Source: Bacillota bacterium (lineage in GTDB: Bacteria > Bacillota > Clostridia > Acetivibrionales > JANLFN01). From it: a DNA stretch of 46,692 nucleotides. Shown here one piece after another: positions 3,797 through 39,909 of this stretch (the stretch's first letter is position 1; the number at the start of each line of letters is the position of its first letter). The translations under genes and the position numbers were made by a program. Location: assembly GCA_030705825.1 (NCBI GenBank), contig JAUZPR010000011.1, positions 1-46,692 of the forward strand, read 5' to 3'. The notes under the pieces are model-generated. The model ran no database searches. It was given only the letters and a program-made list of their open reading frames with translations, and was not told the origin of the DNA.

Positions 3797-3801
3797 GTTC
3801 A

Positions 3802-3871
3802 GAGTTCGGAGTGAGGAATTTGGAGTTGGGAGTTTGGAGTTGGGAGTTTGGAGTTCGGAGTTTGGAGTTCC
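3802..3871. repeat. Heptanucleotide tandem array, left half (GAGTTTG type)
   Basis: Ten back-to-back degenerate seven-base units (GAGTTCG, GAGTTGG, GAGTTTG and variants) with no indels. It faces the complementary AACTCTG-type array at 4069-4117, so together they form an inverted pair around the terminator between the HD-GYP gene and metK. Noncoding. Confidence 0.85.
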
Positions 3872-3885
3872 AGGTTATGTTGTAG

Positions 3886-3907
3886 GGAACGGTGCCCTCA
3901 CCGTTCC
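3886..3907. repeat. GTAGGG-led hairpin repeat, variant
   Basis: Perfect eight-base stem GGAACGGT / ACCGTTCC around GCCCTC, preceded by TGTAGG. A related inverted sequence sits at 5699-5722 behind ftsH (AACGGC...GCCGTT). Probably a member of the same short palindromic family as 3772-3796. Confidence 0.55.
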
Positions 3908-3926
3908 GTTACAGGTTTTAAGACAC

Positions 3927-3959
3927 AAAAATGGATAGTTCAAGAAACTATCCATTTTT
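3927..3959. terminator. Bidirectional terminator between the HD-GYP gene and metK
   Basis: Fourteen-base perfect stem (AAAAATGGATAGTT / AACTATCCATTTTT) with a five-base loop. A-run on one side and T-run on the other let it work for both convergent genes. Confidence 0.85.
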
Positions 3960-4068
3960 ATTTTATAATTTTTCAATTATGTCTTTACTCCGCTTCGAAG
4001 AAGCAGTAAGGCTTCGGAGTACTTCTTTTTCTCTCCCTTGATGTGAGGGAGAGATAGAGAGAGAGTTT

Positions 4069-4117
4069 AACTCCAAACTCTATACCCTGAACCCCCAACC
4101 CTGAACTCTGAACTTTT
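4069..4117. repeat. Heptanucleotide tandem array, right half (AACTCTG type)
   Basis: Seven units: AACTCCA, AACTCTA, TACCCTG, AACCCCC, AACCCTG, AACTCTG, AACTTTT. It is the reverse complement type of the array at 3802-3871 and stops four bases short of the metK stop codon. A CTCTCCCT/AGGGAGAG hairpin lies just to its left at 4031-4053. Confidence 0.85.
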
Positions 4118-4120
4118 ATA

Positions 4121-5435: not shown

Positions 5436-5538
5436 TTCCTCCTCATCTTTCAGGATTACTCCTGCAGGAATTGGCACCGATGCTTGCTGCCGGTTGCCGG
5501 GTTTCATAGGGCTCAGTCCCTCCACCTCTCTGGATAAG
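5436..5538 (-). ncRNA. SAM-I (S-box) riboswitch
   Basis: Minus-strand sequence holds the S-box core in order: CTTATC-AGAGAGGTGGAGGGA, then GCCCTATGAAACCCGGCAACC, then GGTGCCAATTCCTGC, closing with GATGAGGAGG. All are near-invariant blocks of the SAM-I class. It sits between a SigA promoter and metK, where such switches are known. A 60-codon open frame over it is an accident of the RNA sequence. Confidence 0.97.
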
Positions 5539-5563
5539 GTTCATATATTATTTTGTTACAATA

Positions 5564-19052: not shown

Positions 19053-19343
19053 CTTATTTTGGGTCGCTCAAAGCAGTTCTCAAAAGGGAAACCCCTTCAA
19101 ACGGCAGAGTTTTCCCTTTTGTAAACCCTTCCTTGCCTTAGGCGCAAAATTTCCATCCCAGAGCTTCCAAGTATTTATTCTTATTTCTATTCGGTCGTTT
19201 CTAACGGCATCCATGCCGTATCCAACTGAACCAGTCTTCCTTGACTGGTTCCCCGAACCTTGTGTAATAAATACAGGAAGCTCTACGTCAGTCAATAAAG
19301 CGCCTGCTCCGCATTTTTTTGTAGTGGACAGCAATTAGCAAAT
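19053..19343. repeat. Hairpin-rich noncoding stretch, possible dispersed element
   Basis: No convincing gene. It holds several clean inverted repeats: AAAAGGGAAA...TTTCCCTTTT (about 19081-19119), ACGGCAT/ATGCCGT (about 19204-19219) and GAACCAGTC/GACTGGTTC (about 19228-19251). Open frames exist on both strands (19027-19338 plus, 19080-19334 minus), but neither has a good ribosome site and they overlap fully in antisense. This looks like a structured element or relic with accidental frames. I faintly recall similar short predicted proteins in clostridial genomes, which would fit a dispersed element; unverified. Confidence 0.4.
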
Positions 19344-19393: not shown

Positions 19394-21667
19394 TTAATAC
19401 ACTTCAAACTCCCATAGCGAGTATCCATAACACGTTCCGCGTTGGATTCCCACTAATTTAACATACCTTGCGTTTATTGGACTGATATTTATCTCATCAA
19501 TTCCGCCGTCTCCGCTTGTTGTATAATATACATCGCTCCAGTTGGTACCGTCGGAGGATACCTGAATTTTATACGATTTTCCGTAAGCGGCCTCCCAATT
19601 TAACTTGACCTTGCTTATAGTTTTAACCGAGCCAAGATCAACACTTATCCACTGATTATCGGAAAACAGACTTGACCAGCGGGTATTGCTGTTTCCATCG
19701 AAGGCCTTATCTGAATTCATAGATGAATTAAATATCGAAGATGCGTTGGAGGTTTTATTTAGTGCCAGGTTCTGTACATTCTGTGACACCTGTCCCGGGT
19801 TTATAATTTCAACTCTGTCAGCATTAATATAAGTGCCTGAAGAATTTGAGTTTTTAGTACCGGTAACCCTGACCTTGAGTGTGTGCAGTCCATTATTAAG
19901 AACCGGGCTTGAATAAAGCAGGACATTGTCTTTTCTAACCGCGGAATAGAAATCAATAAGCGTTTCGGAAGAGCCGTCTATTGAAACTGCCGCTATTCCG
20001 TACCCAGGATCTATCGCATTATAGATGTTTGCCTGCGTTCCCTGGAAAACAACCTGATAATACGCATTAGACTGGTTTGACCAGTGATTGTCACTGTTGT
20101 AAGCACCGGTCTGATACCCATAGTACCAGGCTCCCTGATAATTAAACTGGCTCTGTGCTGTTCCGGCCGTATTGTCATTGATTGAAACAACAGACGGATT
20201 TGCCGGTGGAGTGGTAACATTATTCAGAACATCCACCCTGTCTGCATTTACAAAAGTACCGGTTGATGCGGAATTTTTACTTCCTGTTACCCTTACCTTT
20301 AATGTATGCTGACCATTTGAAAGGACAGGACTTGTATAAACAAGCACATTATCCTTTCTTACTGAAGAATAAAAATCTACCAGGGTCTCTGCCGAACCGT
20401 CTATAGATACTGCAGCAATTCCATGTCCCGGGTCTATGGCTCCATAAATATTAACCTGGTTACCCTGGAATATGACCTGATAATATGCATTGGTCTGGTT
20501 GGACCAGTGGTTGTCACTGTTATATGCCCCAGTCTGATATCCATAATACCATGTTCCCTGATAATTGAACTGGTTCAGAGAGGTACCGGTTGTATTATCA
20601 TTTACTGTTGCAAGAGAAGGATTGTTTGGAGGTGTTGAAGGATTATTTAAAATTTCAAGCCTGTCGCTGGTTACTGTAGTTCCGGATGATGCCTGGCTTT
20701 TACTTCCTGTTACCCTGACCTTTAGCGTATGCTGTCCGTTTGGAAGAACAGGACTTGTATAAACAAGCACATTATCCTTTCTTACCGAAGAGTAAAAATC
20801 AACATAGGATTCGGCAGAACCGTCTATTGATACTGCCGCTATTCCATGCCTGGGATCAATAGCTCCATAGAGCTTTACCTGGTTTCCGTGGAATGTGACC
20901 TGATAATATGCATTTACCTTACTTGACCAATGATTGTCATTTTTATATGCACCCGATTGACTCCCATAGTTCCAGCTTCCATGATAAGTGAACTGGTTAA
21001 GAGCGGTACCTGTCTGATTGTCATTCACTGTAACAAGTGCAGGTGTCTGATCATTTCCGCTGTTACCGCTATTATCATTTATTATTATTGTACCGGTATC
21101 CTCATCCCATTCTACCGTTTCTCCGAACTGTTCAGCAATAAACCTTATTGGAACAACAATATATCCTTTGCAGTTAATGGCCGGTACATCGATTCTTACT
21201 TCTCTCCCGTTTACCAAAACAATGTTGCTGTTCATTTTAAGCTGAATTACCGTATTTCCCTTTGTTATTGTTACAACCTTGCTGGATGAGTCCCATTTTA
21301 CATCCGCGCCAAGAGCCGTAACCAAAGCCCTTATAGGAATGAGCATCCTTCCATCTTTATTAAATGGAGGAACATCAAGGGATAGTTCATTTCCGTTTAC
21401 AAATACCATTTTGCTTTCAAGATTGTTCATATCAAGTCCTAACATATGGTATTTACGTTTTAGGTTCTGTATCTGTTTCAGGATGTCTTTTCTTGTATAC
21501 GCATCTTTATAGTATTGTTTGAACATTTGCATAAGGGAGTTCAGATCACCGTAATTTTGTACCGAAGTGTTCTTAGGACCCGAATGGTTGGACTTTGCAT
21601 AGGTAAAAGGCGTACAGACAGACATTACTAAGACAAATGATAAAAAGATTGCAGCAATTTTTTTCAT
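19394..21667 (-). CDS. Secreted protein: copper amine oxidase-like N domain, three CBM-like repeats, F5/8C domain
   Basis: Probable cell-surface or secreted glycan-binding protein, 757 residues. A signal peptide (residues 1-24, cleavage after FTYA) is followed by a helical stretch (35-80) and a copper-amine-oxidase N-terminal-like module (about 85-197; two units, each with VNG...DVP...IPIRA/F). Then come three near-identical jelly-roll-like repeats (211-340, 352-481, 493-622; each with AYYQV-F, AIDPxxGIAAVSIDGS, DFYSxVRKDNVLxY and GxHTLKVRVTG) joined by Pro/Asn linkers. An F5/8 type C (discoidin, CBM32-like) domain occupies 630-757. No catalytic domain is visible. ATG at 21667 follows AAGGAGG by eight bases; a longer frame upstream lacks a signal peptide start. 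It follows sigI-rsgI and has a SigI-type promoter. Confidence 0.9.
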   Translation of the reverse strand: MKKIAAIFLSFVLVMSVCTPFTYAKSNHSGPKNTSVQNYGDLNSLMQMFKQYYKDAYTRKDILKQIQNLKRKYHMLGLDMNNLESKMVFVNGNELSLDVPPFNKDGRMLIPIRALVTALGADVKWDSSSKVVTITKGNTVIQLKMNSNIVLVNGREVRIDVPAINCKGYIVVPIRFIAEQFGETVEWDEDTGTIIINDNSGNSGNDQTPALVTVNDNQTGTALNQFTYHGSWNYGSQSGAYKNDNHWSSKVNAYYQVTFHGNQVKLYGAIDPRHGIAAVSIDGSAESYVDFYSSVRKDNVLVYTSPVLPNGQHTLKVRVTGSKSQASSGTTVTSDRLEILNNPSTPPNNPSLATVNDNTTGTSLNQFNYQGTWYYGYQTGAYNSDNHWSNQTNAYYQVIFQGNQVNIYGAIDPGHGIAAVSIDGSAETLVDFYSSVRKDNVLVYTSPVLSNGQHTLKVRVTGSKNSASTGTFVNADRVDVLNNVTTPPANPSVVSINDNTAGTAQSQFNYQGAWYYGYQTGAYNSDNHWSNQSNAYYQVVFQGTQANIYNAIDPGYGIAAVSIDGSSETLIDFYSAVRKDNVLLYSSPVLNNGLHTLKVRVTGTKNSNSSGTYINADRVEIINPGQVSQNVQNLALNKTSNASSIFNSSMNSDKAFDGNSNTRWSSLFSDNQWISVDLGSVKTISKVKLNWEAAYGKSYKIQVSSDGTNWSDVYYTTSGDGGIDEINISPINARYVKLVGIQRGTCYGYSLWEFEVY

Positions 21668-36514: not shown

Positions 36515-37042
36515 CTAAACCGGCTTGTTTTGTTTAGCTTCCAGGTTCTTAATCCTGTCTCGGATTTCGGCTGCCTTTTCATATTCTTCATTCTGTATGG
36601 CCTTATTTAATAATTCTTTTAAACCGTCTATCTCATTTGCCTGTTTCGGCTGAGTCAAAGCCATGCCTTGCTGTTTACTGCCGGGCGATTTTCCGCAGTG
36701 GACCGCATTTCCATGCAGCCTTTTCAGCAGCAGGTCAAGCTTGTCATGATAAAGCTCATAACAGCTGCCGCATCCCAGCTTCCCGCTTTTTTGAAATTCC
36801 TCATATGTCATTCCGCATTTTTCACATATTACCCGGGGTTCGGACTGAATCCTGTAACCATTGTCGGAAGCAAATTCCATAATACCGGAGAGAAAATCAC
36901 TTATACTGAAGGGTGAACCAAAAGTGACCTGTCCTTTTTCTTTGGCACACTGTTCACACAAATACATTTCTACCTTGTTATTATTAACTACCTGTGTAAA
37001 ATGAACACTCGCAGGTCTTTTCTGACACCATTGACACAGCAT
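36515..37042 (-). CDS. mcsA: McsA, activator of McsB
   Basis: Zinc-finger adaptor needed for McsB activity. 175 residues. Two four-cysteine zinc sites (CQWC...CEQC; CEKCG...CGSC) and a C-terminal UVR motif (LKELLNKAIQNEEYEKAAEIRDRIKNLE). ATG at 37042 with GGGGAG eight bases upstream; the GTG at 37051 lies within the ribosome site. It stands second after ctsR, but a 350-base repeat-filled gap separates them. Confidence 0.95.
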   Translation of the reverse strand: MLCQWCQKRPASVHFTQVVNNNKVEMYLCEQCAKEKGQVTFGSPFSISDFLSGIMEFASDNGYRIQSEPRVICEKCGMTYEEFQKSGKLGCGSCYELYHDKLDLLLKRLHGNAVHCGKSPGSKQQGMALTQPKQANEIDGLKELLNKAIQNEEYEKAAEIRDRIKNLEAKQNKPV

Positions 37043-37062
37043 TAAATTCACTCCCCTTAATT

Positions 37063-37132
37063 CAGTGTACAGTTGACAGTGTACAGTGTACAGTTTCTAG
37101 CTAGTTGAAAATTGACAATTGAGAGATGACAG
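37063..37132. repeat. Heptanucleotide array inside the ctsR operon, left half
   Basis: Ten units in register: CAGTGTA, CAGTTGA, CAGTGTA, CAGTGTA, CAGTTTC, TAGCTAG, TTGAAAA, TTGACAA, TTGAGAG, ATGACAG. It begins about ten bases upstream of the mcsA ribosome site. An AT-rich core of about 100 bases (37133-37230), with no visible motif, follows. Confidence 0.85.
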
Positions 37133-37230
37133 TTCTAATATATAAGAACTTACATCATCTGCTATATATAATATTTAAATAAACAAAAGATTTACCCAAT
37201 ATAATAAAGATATTTAATATTTGCTTACCA

Positions 37231-37396
37231 CTGTCAACTGCATTTCCAACTGTCATCTGTCAATTGTCAACTGTACACTGCCATTTTCAACTGTCCTCTA
37301 TCTGATAACTGTAAATTGTACACTGTAAACTGTACACTATTATTAACTGTACATTGTTCTTAACTGTACACTGTACACTGTCAACTGTACACTATT
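37231..37396. repeat. Heptanucleotide array inside the ctsR operon, right half
   Basis: About 23 mostly seven-base units of CTGTACA/CTGTCAA type with a few indels, opposite in sense to 37063-37132. It runs right up to the ctsR stop codon. Together the halves form an inverted pair of 330 bases between ctsR and mcsA. Confidence 0.85.
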
Positions 37397-37855
37397 TTAT
37401 ATGAGTAGACTTGTCAGCATGTTTTTAAGGATGGACGCCCTTATCAAATCTTTAACCTGAGTAGGAATTCCGACCAGGACCTTGTCACTGACAGCTGCCC
37501 TCAGAATTAATCCTTCCCTTGACGATACCACTTCATAGTCCATAAAGTTATTTATGAAAGCTTCGGCTGACTGTTGGGAAATACTGCCCCCTATGGCATT
37601 GACTATATGCATGAGGTAACTTCCGGTATTACCTATATTTACACGTTTTATTCTTATGTGTCCGCCTCCGCCTCTTCTACTTTCTACATAATAGCCTCTT
37701 TCAGATGTAAATCTGGTATCAATTACGTAATTTATCTGGGAAGGCACACAATTGAACTGGTTTGCAAGCTCATTCCGCTGGATCTCGATAGATCCGTCCA
37801 TATCATCCATCAATTGTTTTATAAATGCTTCTATCAAATCACTTAATCTAGCCAC
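37397..37855 (-). CDS. ctsR: Transcriptional repressor CtsR
   Basis: Heat-sensing repressor of clp genes. 152 residues, standard. N-terminal winged helix (LSDLIEAFIKQLM...IQRNELANQFNCVPSQINYVIDTRFTSERGYYVESRRGGGGHIRIKRV) includes the glycine-rich thermosensing wing RGGGG. Start is GTG at 37855, preceded by AAGGTGA; upstream in-frame extension runs through the operator and is not coding. Its own operator lies just upstream, so the operon is autoregulated. Confidence 0.96.
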   Translation of the reverse strand: MARLSDLIEAFIKQLMDDMDGSIEIQRNELANQFNCVPSQINYVIDTRFTSERGYYVESRRGGGGHIRIKRVNIGNTGSYLMHIVNAIGGSISQQSAEAFINNFMDYEVVSSREGLILRAAVSDKVLVGIPTQVKDLIRASILKNMLTSLLI

Positions 37856-37878
37856 TTTGGTCACCTTCCTGATTTGAT

Positions 37879-37895
37879 TTTGACTATCTTTGACT
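37879..37895 (-). promoter_or_regulatory. CtsR operator
   Basis: Minus strand AGTCAAA-GAT-AGTCAAA, an exact match to the CtsR heptad direct repeat (RGTCAAA-N3-RGTCAAA). It sits between the -10 box and the ribosome site, where binding would block transcription. Confidence 0.95.
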
Positions 37896-37903
37896 TTAAC
37901 AAA

Positions 37904-37932
37904 AGTATACCCCATATCTGAAATAAATTCAA
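37904..37932 (-). promoter_or_regulatory. SigA promoter of the ctsR operon
   Basis: Minus strand TTGAAT (37932-37927), 17-base spacer, TATACT (37909-37904), immediately upstream of the CtsR operator. Confidence 0.85.
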
Positions 37933-38334: not shown

Positions 38335-39747
38335 TTATCCCTCAACCGGTTCAACATGTATATGAACCGCCTCGACGTCGCTTATACCTTCACGTATCAT
38401 GTTGGAAATGCCTTTCGAAATCTGTTCGGTCTTTTCAATGGAATAATTCTCTTCCAGTTCACAGTGGAGAAAAATTGTAAGCTTGTTTTCCCTGCTGTAA
38501 ATCTTTATATCATGACAATTTGGCTTTTCAGGTACCTGCTTGATTAATTCATATATATTATCTATAATATGACCACTCTGTCCGGTTATATCTTCAGCGT
38601 GTATATTCTGCTGCTCAACATATTCAAAGTTAACACTTACATCCTGTACATCATCCATTGCTTCCTGTATCAAATTACCTATGGTGTGCGACAATCCATG
38701 CGATTCGTTCAGGCTCATACATTCCTTTACCTCTATATGAATGGCTATGAACTTTTTGCCTGACACCTCATAGACATGGATATTGTGTATATTTGTGCAA
38801 ACAGGAAATTTATCAACTATCTTCTTGACCGTATGATAAACCTCCCTGTCTTCCATGCCCGAAACATCGACAGGAAAGGTACTGATAACAATATCGCTGT
38901 TTGGTATGCTCTTCTGCAGTCTGTTCCTTATCTCATCAACTATGGAATGGACAACCCTATGGCTTTCATTCCTTGCAATGCCTACACTTATATCAATAAA
39001 ATAATTTGCGCCCGAAGGCCTAACACGTGCATTTTCAACATCCAGAACCCCTTTTACTCCGTTAACCTCATGAAGGATTGTACTGACCATACCTTTCGGA
39101 GCAGTATCAAGAAGCGCATCAATAGTACGTTTCCCAAGCTTGATACTTACTGTTATAACCAAAGCCGATACACCAAGAGCTGCAATTGGGTCTCCGTATT
39201 TCATGAACGGGATTTTAAAATAGTCGCCAATGCCTACAAAGAGCAACCCTGCTATTACCACATACGAACTCCATACATCTGTGTCGAAATGAAGAGCGTC
39301 GGCCTCCAAAGCCTGACTTCCGTATTTTTTTGCCGCTTTCCGCAAAACCTTGGCCCTGGTTATATTGATAGCTATTGAAAGTATCATAATACCAATGCCC
39401 CAAAGAGTTTCCGAAACCTTTAGGCTTACCAATTCGCCCAAAAACAGCCTTTTAACCGCCTCATCAATGATCCATGCACAGGTGACCAACAAAAGCAAAG
39501 TTTCTATGAGTGCGGAAAAGCTTTCTACCTTGCCGTGACCGTAATTATGCTCCATATCGGCAGGTTTGTCCGATATCCTTACTGCAAAGAACGTAACAAC
39601 TGCAGCACCTAAATCCAGTGCAGAATGCGCCGCCTCAGACAAAATTCCCAAGCTGCCTGTTGTTACACCAACAATTATTTTGACCAACGTCAGGAAAACC
39701 GCTGCAATTACAGAACTGAATGCAACTTTTTGTTTTTCGCCGTTCAT
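38335..39747 (-). CDS. Cation diffusion facilitator metal exporter with three C-terminal dimer-type domains
   Basis: Proton-driven exporter of divalent metals, 470 residues against about 300 for ordinary members. The membrane domain spans residues 1-205; the two metal-site pairs are H41-x3-D45 (HSALD) and H153-x3-D157 (HFDTD). After it come three related alpha/beta units of the cytosolic ZT_dimer type: about 213-293, 300-376 and 395-466; family members normally have one. Start is ATG at 39747 after GGGGAGG. The transcript starts with a probable NiCo riboswitch and terminator, so cobalt, nickel or iron(II) is the likely cargo (inference from the known partner genes of that riboswitch). Confidence 0.94.
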   Translation of the reverse strand: MNGEKQKVAFSSVIAAVFLTLVKIIVGVTTGSLGILSEAAHSALDLGAAVVTFFAVRISDKPADMEHNYGHGKVESFSALIETLLLLVTCAWIIDEAVKRLFLGELVSLKVSETLWGIGIMILSIAINITRAKVLRKAAKKYGSQALEADALHFDTDVWSSYVVIAGLLFVGIGDYFKIPFMKYGDPIAALGVSALVITVSIKLGKRTIDALLDTAPKGMVSTILHEVNGVKGVLDVENARVRPSGANYFIDISVGIARNESHRVVHSIVDEIRNRLQKSIPNSDIVISTFPVDVSGMEDREVYHTVKKIVDKFPVCTNIHNIHVYEVSGKKFIAIHIEVKECMSLNESHGLSHTIGNLIQEAMDDVQDVSVNFEYVEQQNIHAEDITGQSGHIIDNIYELIKQVPEKPNCHDIKIYSRENKLTIFLHCELEENYSIEKTEQISKGISNMIREGISDVEAVHIHVEPVEG

Positions 39748-39772
39748 CAATACCCTCCCCATTCACCTTGAT

Positions 39773-39811
39773 ATAAATAAACCCGCAGGACAATTAATAT
39801 GTCCCGCGGGT
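39773..39811 (-). terminator. Riboswitch-controlled terminator upstream of the CDF gene
   Basis: Minus strand ACCCGCGGGACA / TGTCCTGCGGGT (one mismatch), seven-base loop, then TTTATTTAT. Its 5' arm is also the 3' part of the metal aptamer, so the two folds exclude each other. Confidence 0.85.
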
Positions 39812-39885
39812 GGTTATCCCTCCGCTGCCCCAAAAGGCCCAGCCCCATATACCAATTTGGCATATTGCCTGCTCAAAAGCATATT
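39796..39885 (-). ncRNA. NiCo (czcD-type) metal riboswitch aptamer
   Basis: Minus strand has the order of the NiCo class as I recall it: GAGCAGGCAAT, a small hairpin (ATGCC / GGTAT), ATGGGGCTGGGCC, a second hairpin returning GGGGCAGCGG, then a last stem and GCGGGACA. The outer stem AATATG (39885-39880) pairs exactly with CATATT (39801-39796). It lies between a SigA promoter and a CDF exporter gene, the known setting, and overlaps a terminator, giving a metal-on switch. The class assignment rests on memory of the consensus. Confidence 0.85.
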
Positions 39886-39909
39886 TATTTTGCTTCTTTC
39901 GAATAATAA

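Follow-up and report, generated by a model that had tools for sequence, protein, structure and literature searches.

What occupies the long gap between ctsR and mcsA in a clostridial ctsR-mcsA-mcsB-clpC operon, and how could it have been accommodated there? We addressed this question in a stretch of 46,692 nucleotides (hereafter, the window; contig JAUZPR010000011.1 of assembly GCA_030705825.1, Bacillota bacterium, Clostridia, Acetivibrionales). The operon identity assigned in a first-pass annotation of this DNA holds, with CtsR, a McsA protein carrying the UVR motif, the McsB kinase and ClpC all recognizable. Both ctsR and mcsA lie on the minus strand and are separated by approximately 345 nt filled with seven-base units. 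That the two genes are normally close together, as the annotation had maintained, is confirmed by 40 related loci in which the gap has a median length of 60.5 nt (range 2–286 nt) and is nearly always free of arrays, making the gap in the window abnormally long. Our preferred interpretation, which we consider on balance probable, is that the gap contains nested palindromic non-coding repeats that were inserted in a short operonic gap, that probably are or have been mobile, and that would loop out of the mRNA.

Nested heptad arms between ctsR and mcsA

The original description of this region, in which seven-base arrays of opposite sense flank an AT-rich core and together fill positions 37063–37396, was borne out (Table 1). 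The units are grouped into arms, each consisting of about four heptads followed by AGTT, two arms lying toward mcsA and three, with additional fragments, toward ctsR. The outermost arms match at 32 of 32 bases, forming a perfect 32-bp inverted repeat in which the non-uniform order of the units is shared as well. Because the registers break between successive arms, the initial tallies of ten in-register units in the left half and about 23 units in the right half were overcounts: the left half consists of two arms offset by 4 nt, and the right half of three four-unit arms and single-unit fragments, about 15 full units. The extent given for the array stood at one end only: it begins just outside the mcsA ribosome site (AAGGGGAG) but its other end is separated by 3 nt from the ctsR stop codon (TAA, 37397–37399) and does not coincide with it. 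Period-7 arrays are vastly in excess of chance, with 11 in the window compared to a mean of 0.03 per shuffle (40 dinucleotide shuffles), and this period is unique, with 36 arrays in 444 kb of the genome compared to 0–3 for periods 5, 6 and 8–11. A derivation of the heptads from the CtsR operator was considered and rejected; the sole match to RGTCAAANANRGTCAAA is the operator upstream of ctsR (37879–37895), and none lies in the arrays.

Table 1. Positions of the heptad arms, the flanking genes and other features of the window
Feature	Position	Strand	Remarks
mcsA	36515..37051	-	UVR motif PF02151; the ATG at 37042 may be the actual start
Outer left arm	37064..37095	+	AGTGTAC AGTTGAC AGTGTAC AGTGTAC AGTT; perfect inverted copy of outer right arm
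Inner left arm	37103..37134	+	AGTTGAA AATTGAC AATTGAG AGATGAC AGTT; 4 nt off the register of the outer arm
AT-rich core	37135..37229	none
One-unit arm fragment	37230..37239	-
Third right arm	37248..37279	-	Minus strand: AGTGTAC AGTTGAC AATTGAC AGATGAC AGTT
One-unit arm fragment	37289..37299	-
Second right arm	37307..37338	-	AGTGTAC AGTTTAC AGTGTAC AATTTAC AGTT
One-unit arm fragment	37345..37355	-
Outer right arm	37362..37393	-	AGTGTAC AGTTGAC AGTGTAC AGTGTAC AGTT; 3 nt past the ctsR stop codon
ctsR	37397..37915	-	PF05848 and PF17727
CtsR operator AGTCAAAGATAGTCAAA	37879..37895	-	Upstream of ctsR; exact match, 0.02 expected; unrelated to the arrays
Second convergent heptad-arm pair	3797..4119		AGTTCGG type, between tail-to-tail genes; core contains a REP-like palindrome (TGTAGGGAACGGTGCCCTCACCGTTCCGTT) that recurs in at least 8 other gaps of the genome
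SAM riboswitch	5440..5540	-
TwoAYGGAY RNA	19146..19298	-
Tandem repeat	19852..21036		About 423 bp, 2.8 copies
NiCo riboswitch	39797..39886	-	Just upstream of the ORF at 38335..39762, which by eye resembles a cation-diffusion transporter

The very long hairpin proposed for the mRNA strand is predicted as well, at -114 kcal/mol (z = -8.9; 0 of 100 shuffles as good), with the inner left arm pairing with the inner right arms and the outer stem extending from 3 nt beyond the ctsR stop codon to about 5 nt short of the mcsA ribosome site. If the predicted fold holds, closing of the outer 32-bp stem would place the mcsA ribosome site no more than about 10 nt from the ctsR stop codon. This geometry points to the opposite of the uncoupling of ctsR from mcsA-mcsB-clpC that had been envisaged, a role that is not supported; looping out would instead keep ctsR and mcsA close for translation, as they are in relatives whose gaps measure 10–60 nt. 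Favorable folding is shared by 14 convergent gaps of the same genome (median z of -4.0, compared to -0.6 in other gaps), which fold better because their arms are inverted. The -35 boxes said to be contained in the units are at chance level, since the region holds 5 promoter-like sites where 5.4 are expected, and we accordingly rejected a promoter role. A role as an intrinsic terminator was also rejected (0 sites in the region combining a GC-rich stem and a T run), and an Rfam search over the element matched no known RNA family or riboswitch.

Among the relatives, two loci have arrays of their own in the ctsR-mcsA gap. Petroclostridium sp. X23 carries convergent RGTTCAC arrays at both ends of the gap, and a locus that probably belongs to the other genome of the window's family (G059) carries a weak AACTCTC array before mcsA. 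Neither locus has the window's units, and the three are therefore probably separate acquisitions.

Polarity, length and placement of the arms across genomes

The first-pass annotation had made its reading depend on further arrays in the genome, and these exist. A scan of the 3.65-Mb genome by pattern searches and in about 750 kb of stretches recovered arrays of the same kind across the genome, including 17 two-sided convergent gaps in 752 kb. These arrays are intergenic, consist of tandem seven-base units, are located at the borders of the gaps, and fall into two subfamilies, AGTGTAC/AGTTGAC and AGTTCGG/AGTTAGG. Units in other genomes vary, comprising RGTTCAC, AGTGGGG, AGTGAAT and AATGGAC in Petroclostridium, AGTTTAC in G056, GTTTAGG in the window's sister, AGTTTTT in G007, AGTTGGT in G032 and AGTGTTT in G102. 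The GTTTAGG unit, which forms convergent arms at one locus of G059 (L171), is the same as that of the plant telomere repeat. Within arrays, units vary mainly at one or two of their seven positions, as in RGTTCAC, where position 1 is A or G and the others are 90–100% one base, a pattern that is only suggestive because the search pattern itself restricts some positions.

The strand with the ARTKNNN (A-purine-T-K) motif points inward at either end of a gap, away from the bordering gene, regardless of gene orientation. With array orientation assigned from the unit motif itself, position playing no part, and with genes called by a simple open-frame rule, six pooled genomes sampled partly from contigs already known to carry arrays yielded 71 inward and 2 outward border arrays, and 15 convergent, 0 divergent and 2 same-sense gaps. 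A second method applied to larger samples from two genomes gave inward to outward ratios of 59:5 and 41:3, many of the exceptions being AATT-type units whose orientation cannot be told, along with 17 and 6 convergent compared to 0 and 1 divergent gaps. The same polarity was found in a small sample of four further genomes (4:0 for arrays and 4:0 for gaps). Two of the genomes studied, G175 and G058, are probably one.

Arm length is similarly constrained. In Petroclostridium X23 (G058), 27 of 37 arms have four units, 9 have three and 1 has five; in the window's genome, four units are found in 14 of 32 arms and three in 17, the AGTTCGG subfamily is often longer than four, and some arrays reach 16 units. 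The outer arms keep a median distance of 4 nt to stop codons and of 20 nt to start codons, in the latter case just clear of the ribosome site, and codirectional gaps measure 201 nt with arms compared to 51 nt without. Arms are commonest in tail-to-tail gaps (12 of 77) and rarest in divergent ones (2 of 80; p=0.0045), the difference between divergent and codirectional gaps not being significant (p=0.14). The element is not specific to the ctsR operon: the same kind lies between many types of genes, including tail-to-tail pairs and apparently rRNA genes. At one locus of G056 (L154), heptad arms are found by eye inside an apparent rRNA operon, between the end of the large-subunit rRNA and a 5S-like gene.

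Left and right arms co-occur in 15 gaps compared to 2.5 expected under independence, a six-fold excess (p=1e-10) that favors a paired origin. The subfamilies of the two arms are coupled (p=0.027), although the arms of one gap may nonetheless differ in subfamily. Identity specific to the pair was rejected as proof of a one-step origin, the two arms of a gap being not significantly closer in unit order than arms taken from different gaps (p=0.054 in the window's genome and p=0.92 in Petroclostridium).

Proposed insertion and its alternatives

Under our preferred interpretation, each element would be built from two arms of about four ARTKNNN heptads, the right one inverted relative to the left; such elements, mobile now or formerly in the manner of MITEs, would have entered a formerly short gap, between the stop codon of ctsR and the ribosome site of mcsA. 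The insert would be tolerated through pairing of the arms in the mRNA, such that it loops out and the ctsR stop codon stays near the mcsA ribosome site. The elements show that a tight operon can accept a 300-base insert with both genes intact.

Expansion of short gaps can be followed at sites that are filled in one species and empty in another of the same genus; these come from genera other than that of the window, and their flanking genes are only about 75–80% identical, for which reason exact junctions cannot be fixed. Between a gyrA-like gene and pfpI, G291 has 22 nt and G319, with arms, has 193 nt; between gltA and leuS, the 27 nt of G231 compare to 127 nt in G371, where the gap holds arms and a dispersed palindrome. 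In both expanded gaps the ribosome site of the downstream gene is preserved, and the upstream stop codon is inside or adjoins an arm. One gap of G319 counts against insertion: a conserved terminator-like hairpin (GCTCTC...GAGAGCTTTTGTT), kept in this gap by sister species (five related genomes, L233–L237), is absent in G319, which has heptad arms there although its gap has not been lengthened. In G371, heptad arms at two loci (L197 and L198) adjoin a dispersed palindrome (CCGGGGTTCGCTCGAGACCCAAAATTCGTG...) that has about 50 matches across the genome, often in tandem about 70 nt apart.

Two elements with heptad arms in G102 have a homologous core in common, as a mobile repeat family would. Against simple mobility, core homology between elements is mostly lacking in the sampled parts of the window's genome and of G058, the core parts that are shared in the window's genome being other dispersed REP-like palindromes. 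No target-site duplication is evident by eye, the outer base often being T (TA) and the flanks of the two sides disagreeing. The distribution is patchy within genera: G171 and G371 are rich in arms whereas G231 and G386 have none, and G319 is rich whereas the rest of its genus is poor. Such patchiness in Clostridia is as expected if the cause is mobile or transferable. The constancy of the architecture suggests a repeat that is mobile or built by a machine.

Growth in place is unlikely, although it is the strongest of the alternatives. Under this scenario, polymerase slippage expands heptads in neutral intergenic DNA and inverted copies arise by template switching within hairpins, in line with the slippage view of heptads attributed to Mrazek 2007 in the account given in PMC4679880. 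Among long simple repeats, heptamers rank first in abundance in many bacteria (PMC4679880), and arrays of up to 16 units do occur in the window's genome. Moreover, one gene border carries about 11 AGTTGCA-type units in G371 and about 3 AGTGGTA-type units in G171, two species of one genus; because these arrays differ in both unit and number, turnover appears to be fast once an array is present, as slippage predicts. It does not predict, however, the constantly inward ARTK strand, the clustering at four units, the outer arms hugging both gene borders or the concentration of variation at one or two unit positions. A separate alternative, in which each border independently gains about four heptads of fixed polarity, for example by templated end addition and rejoining, would produce inward polarity at both borders and a fixed unit number, and would accommodate arms of different subfamilies in one gap; nevertheless, we judge it quite improbable, as arm pairing far exceeds independence, arms differ in unit order and no enzyme of this kind is known.

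Two further explanations invoke function or a different mover. A hairpin retained by selection for operon regulation, through uncoupling, RNase III processing or stabilization of the mcsA-mcsB-clpC mRNA, would account for the strong predicted fold and for the different convergent arrays that Petroclostridium X23 (L061) has in the same gap. The presence of elements between many kinds of genes, tail-to-tail pairs most often, and the lack of arrays in the ctsR-mcsA gap of most relatives make this improbable, if less so than independent arms. The least credible candidate, with hardly any weight in our assessment, is a REP/BIME-like element mobilized by a Y1 (RAYT) transposase. BIMEs have a convergent polarity that the arms resemble, and many cores hold REP-like palindromes. 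The search for a linked transposase, which covered Y1 (PF01797), found no association with arms: the family is present in 13 of the 16 genomes rich in arms and in 10 of the 14 poor in them, and the arm-rich G102, G183 and G289 are without it. Insertion of a paired, probably mobile repeat is the interpretation we favor.

Relation to known repeats

Copies of a MITE share cores and usually have target-site duplications. The elements described here possess the terminal inverted repeats of MITEs, in the form of the perfect outer pair, whereas those of the window's genome differ in having unlike cores and no duplication seen by eye. One example is a Porphyromonas gingivalis MITE that contains a minisatellite and, as far as the available part of the source goes (PMC4596501), is likewise short, non-coding and intergenic, with inverted ends and internal tandem repeats.

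Heptamer repeats have been described in several other groups. MacGregor 2015 (PMC4679880) reported TAACTGA repeats in marine Beggiatoaceae, cyanobacteria and Bacteroidetes and proposed a translational role for them. Like the arrays here, they are intergenic direct repeats of heptamers, patchy across genomes, and on the other strand TAACTGA is AGTTATC, which fits the unit class described here; they differ in being mostly single forward sets that terminate immediately ahead of start codons, an inverted repeat having been reported once. According to the citation in that paper, Mrazek et al. 2007 found 7-nt tandem repeats to be overrepresented in many bacteria, again as here, and explained them by slippage; polarity or pairing is not mentioned in that citation.

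The nearest counterpart is the GGGAATC repeat of Xanthomonas. In the available part of Rehm et al. 2015 (PMC4692102), these repeats prefer four units, form about 70 convergent pairs per genome, are strand-fixed and ORF-proximal and are rare between divergent ORFs, an anatomy that matches that of the arms here; the four units are tied to G-quadruplexes, and the function is left open. The Xanthomonas units and the GGGGA(C/T)T units of Nostoc carry G-tracts and are read there as G-quadruplex formers, whereas AGTGTAC, AGTTGAC and RGTTCAC contain no GGG. Because the units here lack G-tracts, G-quadruplexes cannot be the general cause of the four-unit preference, and we rejected them as such. The enlargement of short gaps and the nesting of arms seen here are not described for Xanthomonas or Nostoc in the available part of that paper.

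So far, slippage, G-quadruplexes and translational control have been invoked, each on its own, for the heptamer repeats of several phyla. Units without G-tracts that share the same four-unit, inward, gene-bordering layout argue for one common, testable cause. More speculatively, and with a probability that we would put as low, unrelated bacteria might share one machine that builds inward-pointing arms of about four heptads (ARTKNNN or, loosely, ANTNNNN) from gene borders, with the unit free and the architecture (period 7, about four units, polarity and border position) fixed, in which case the repeats of Xanthomonas, Nostoc, Beggiatoaceae and Clostridia would be a single phenomenon. Our literature searches found no description of such repeats in Clostridia.
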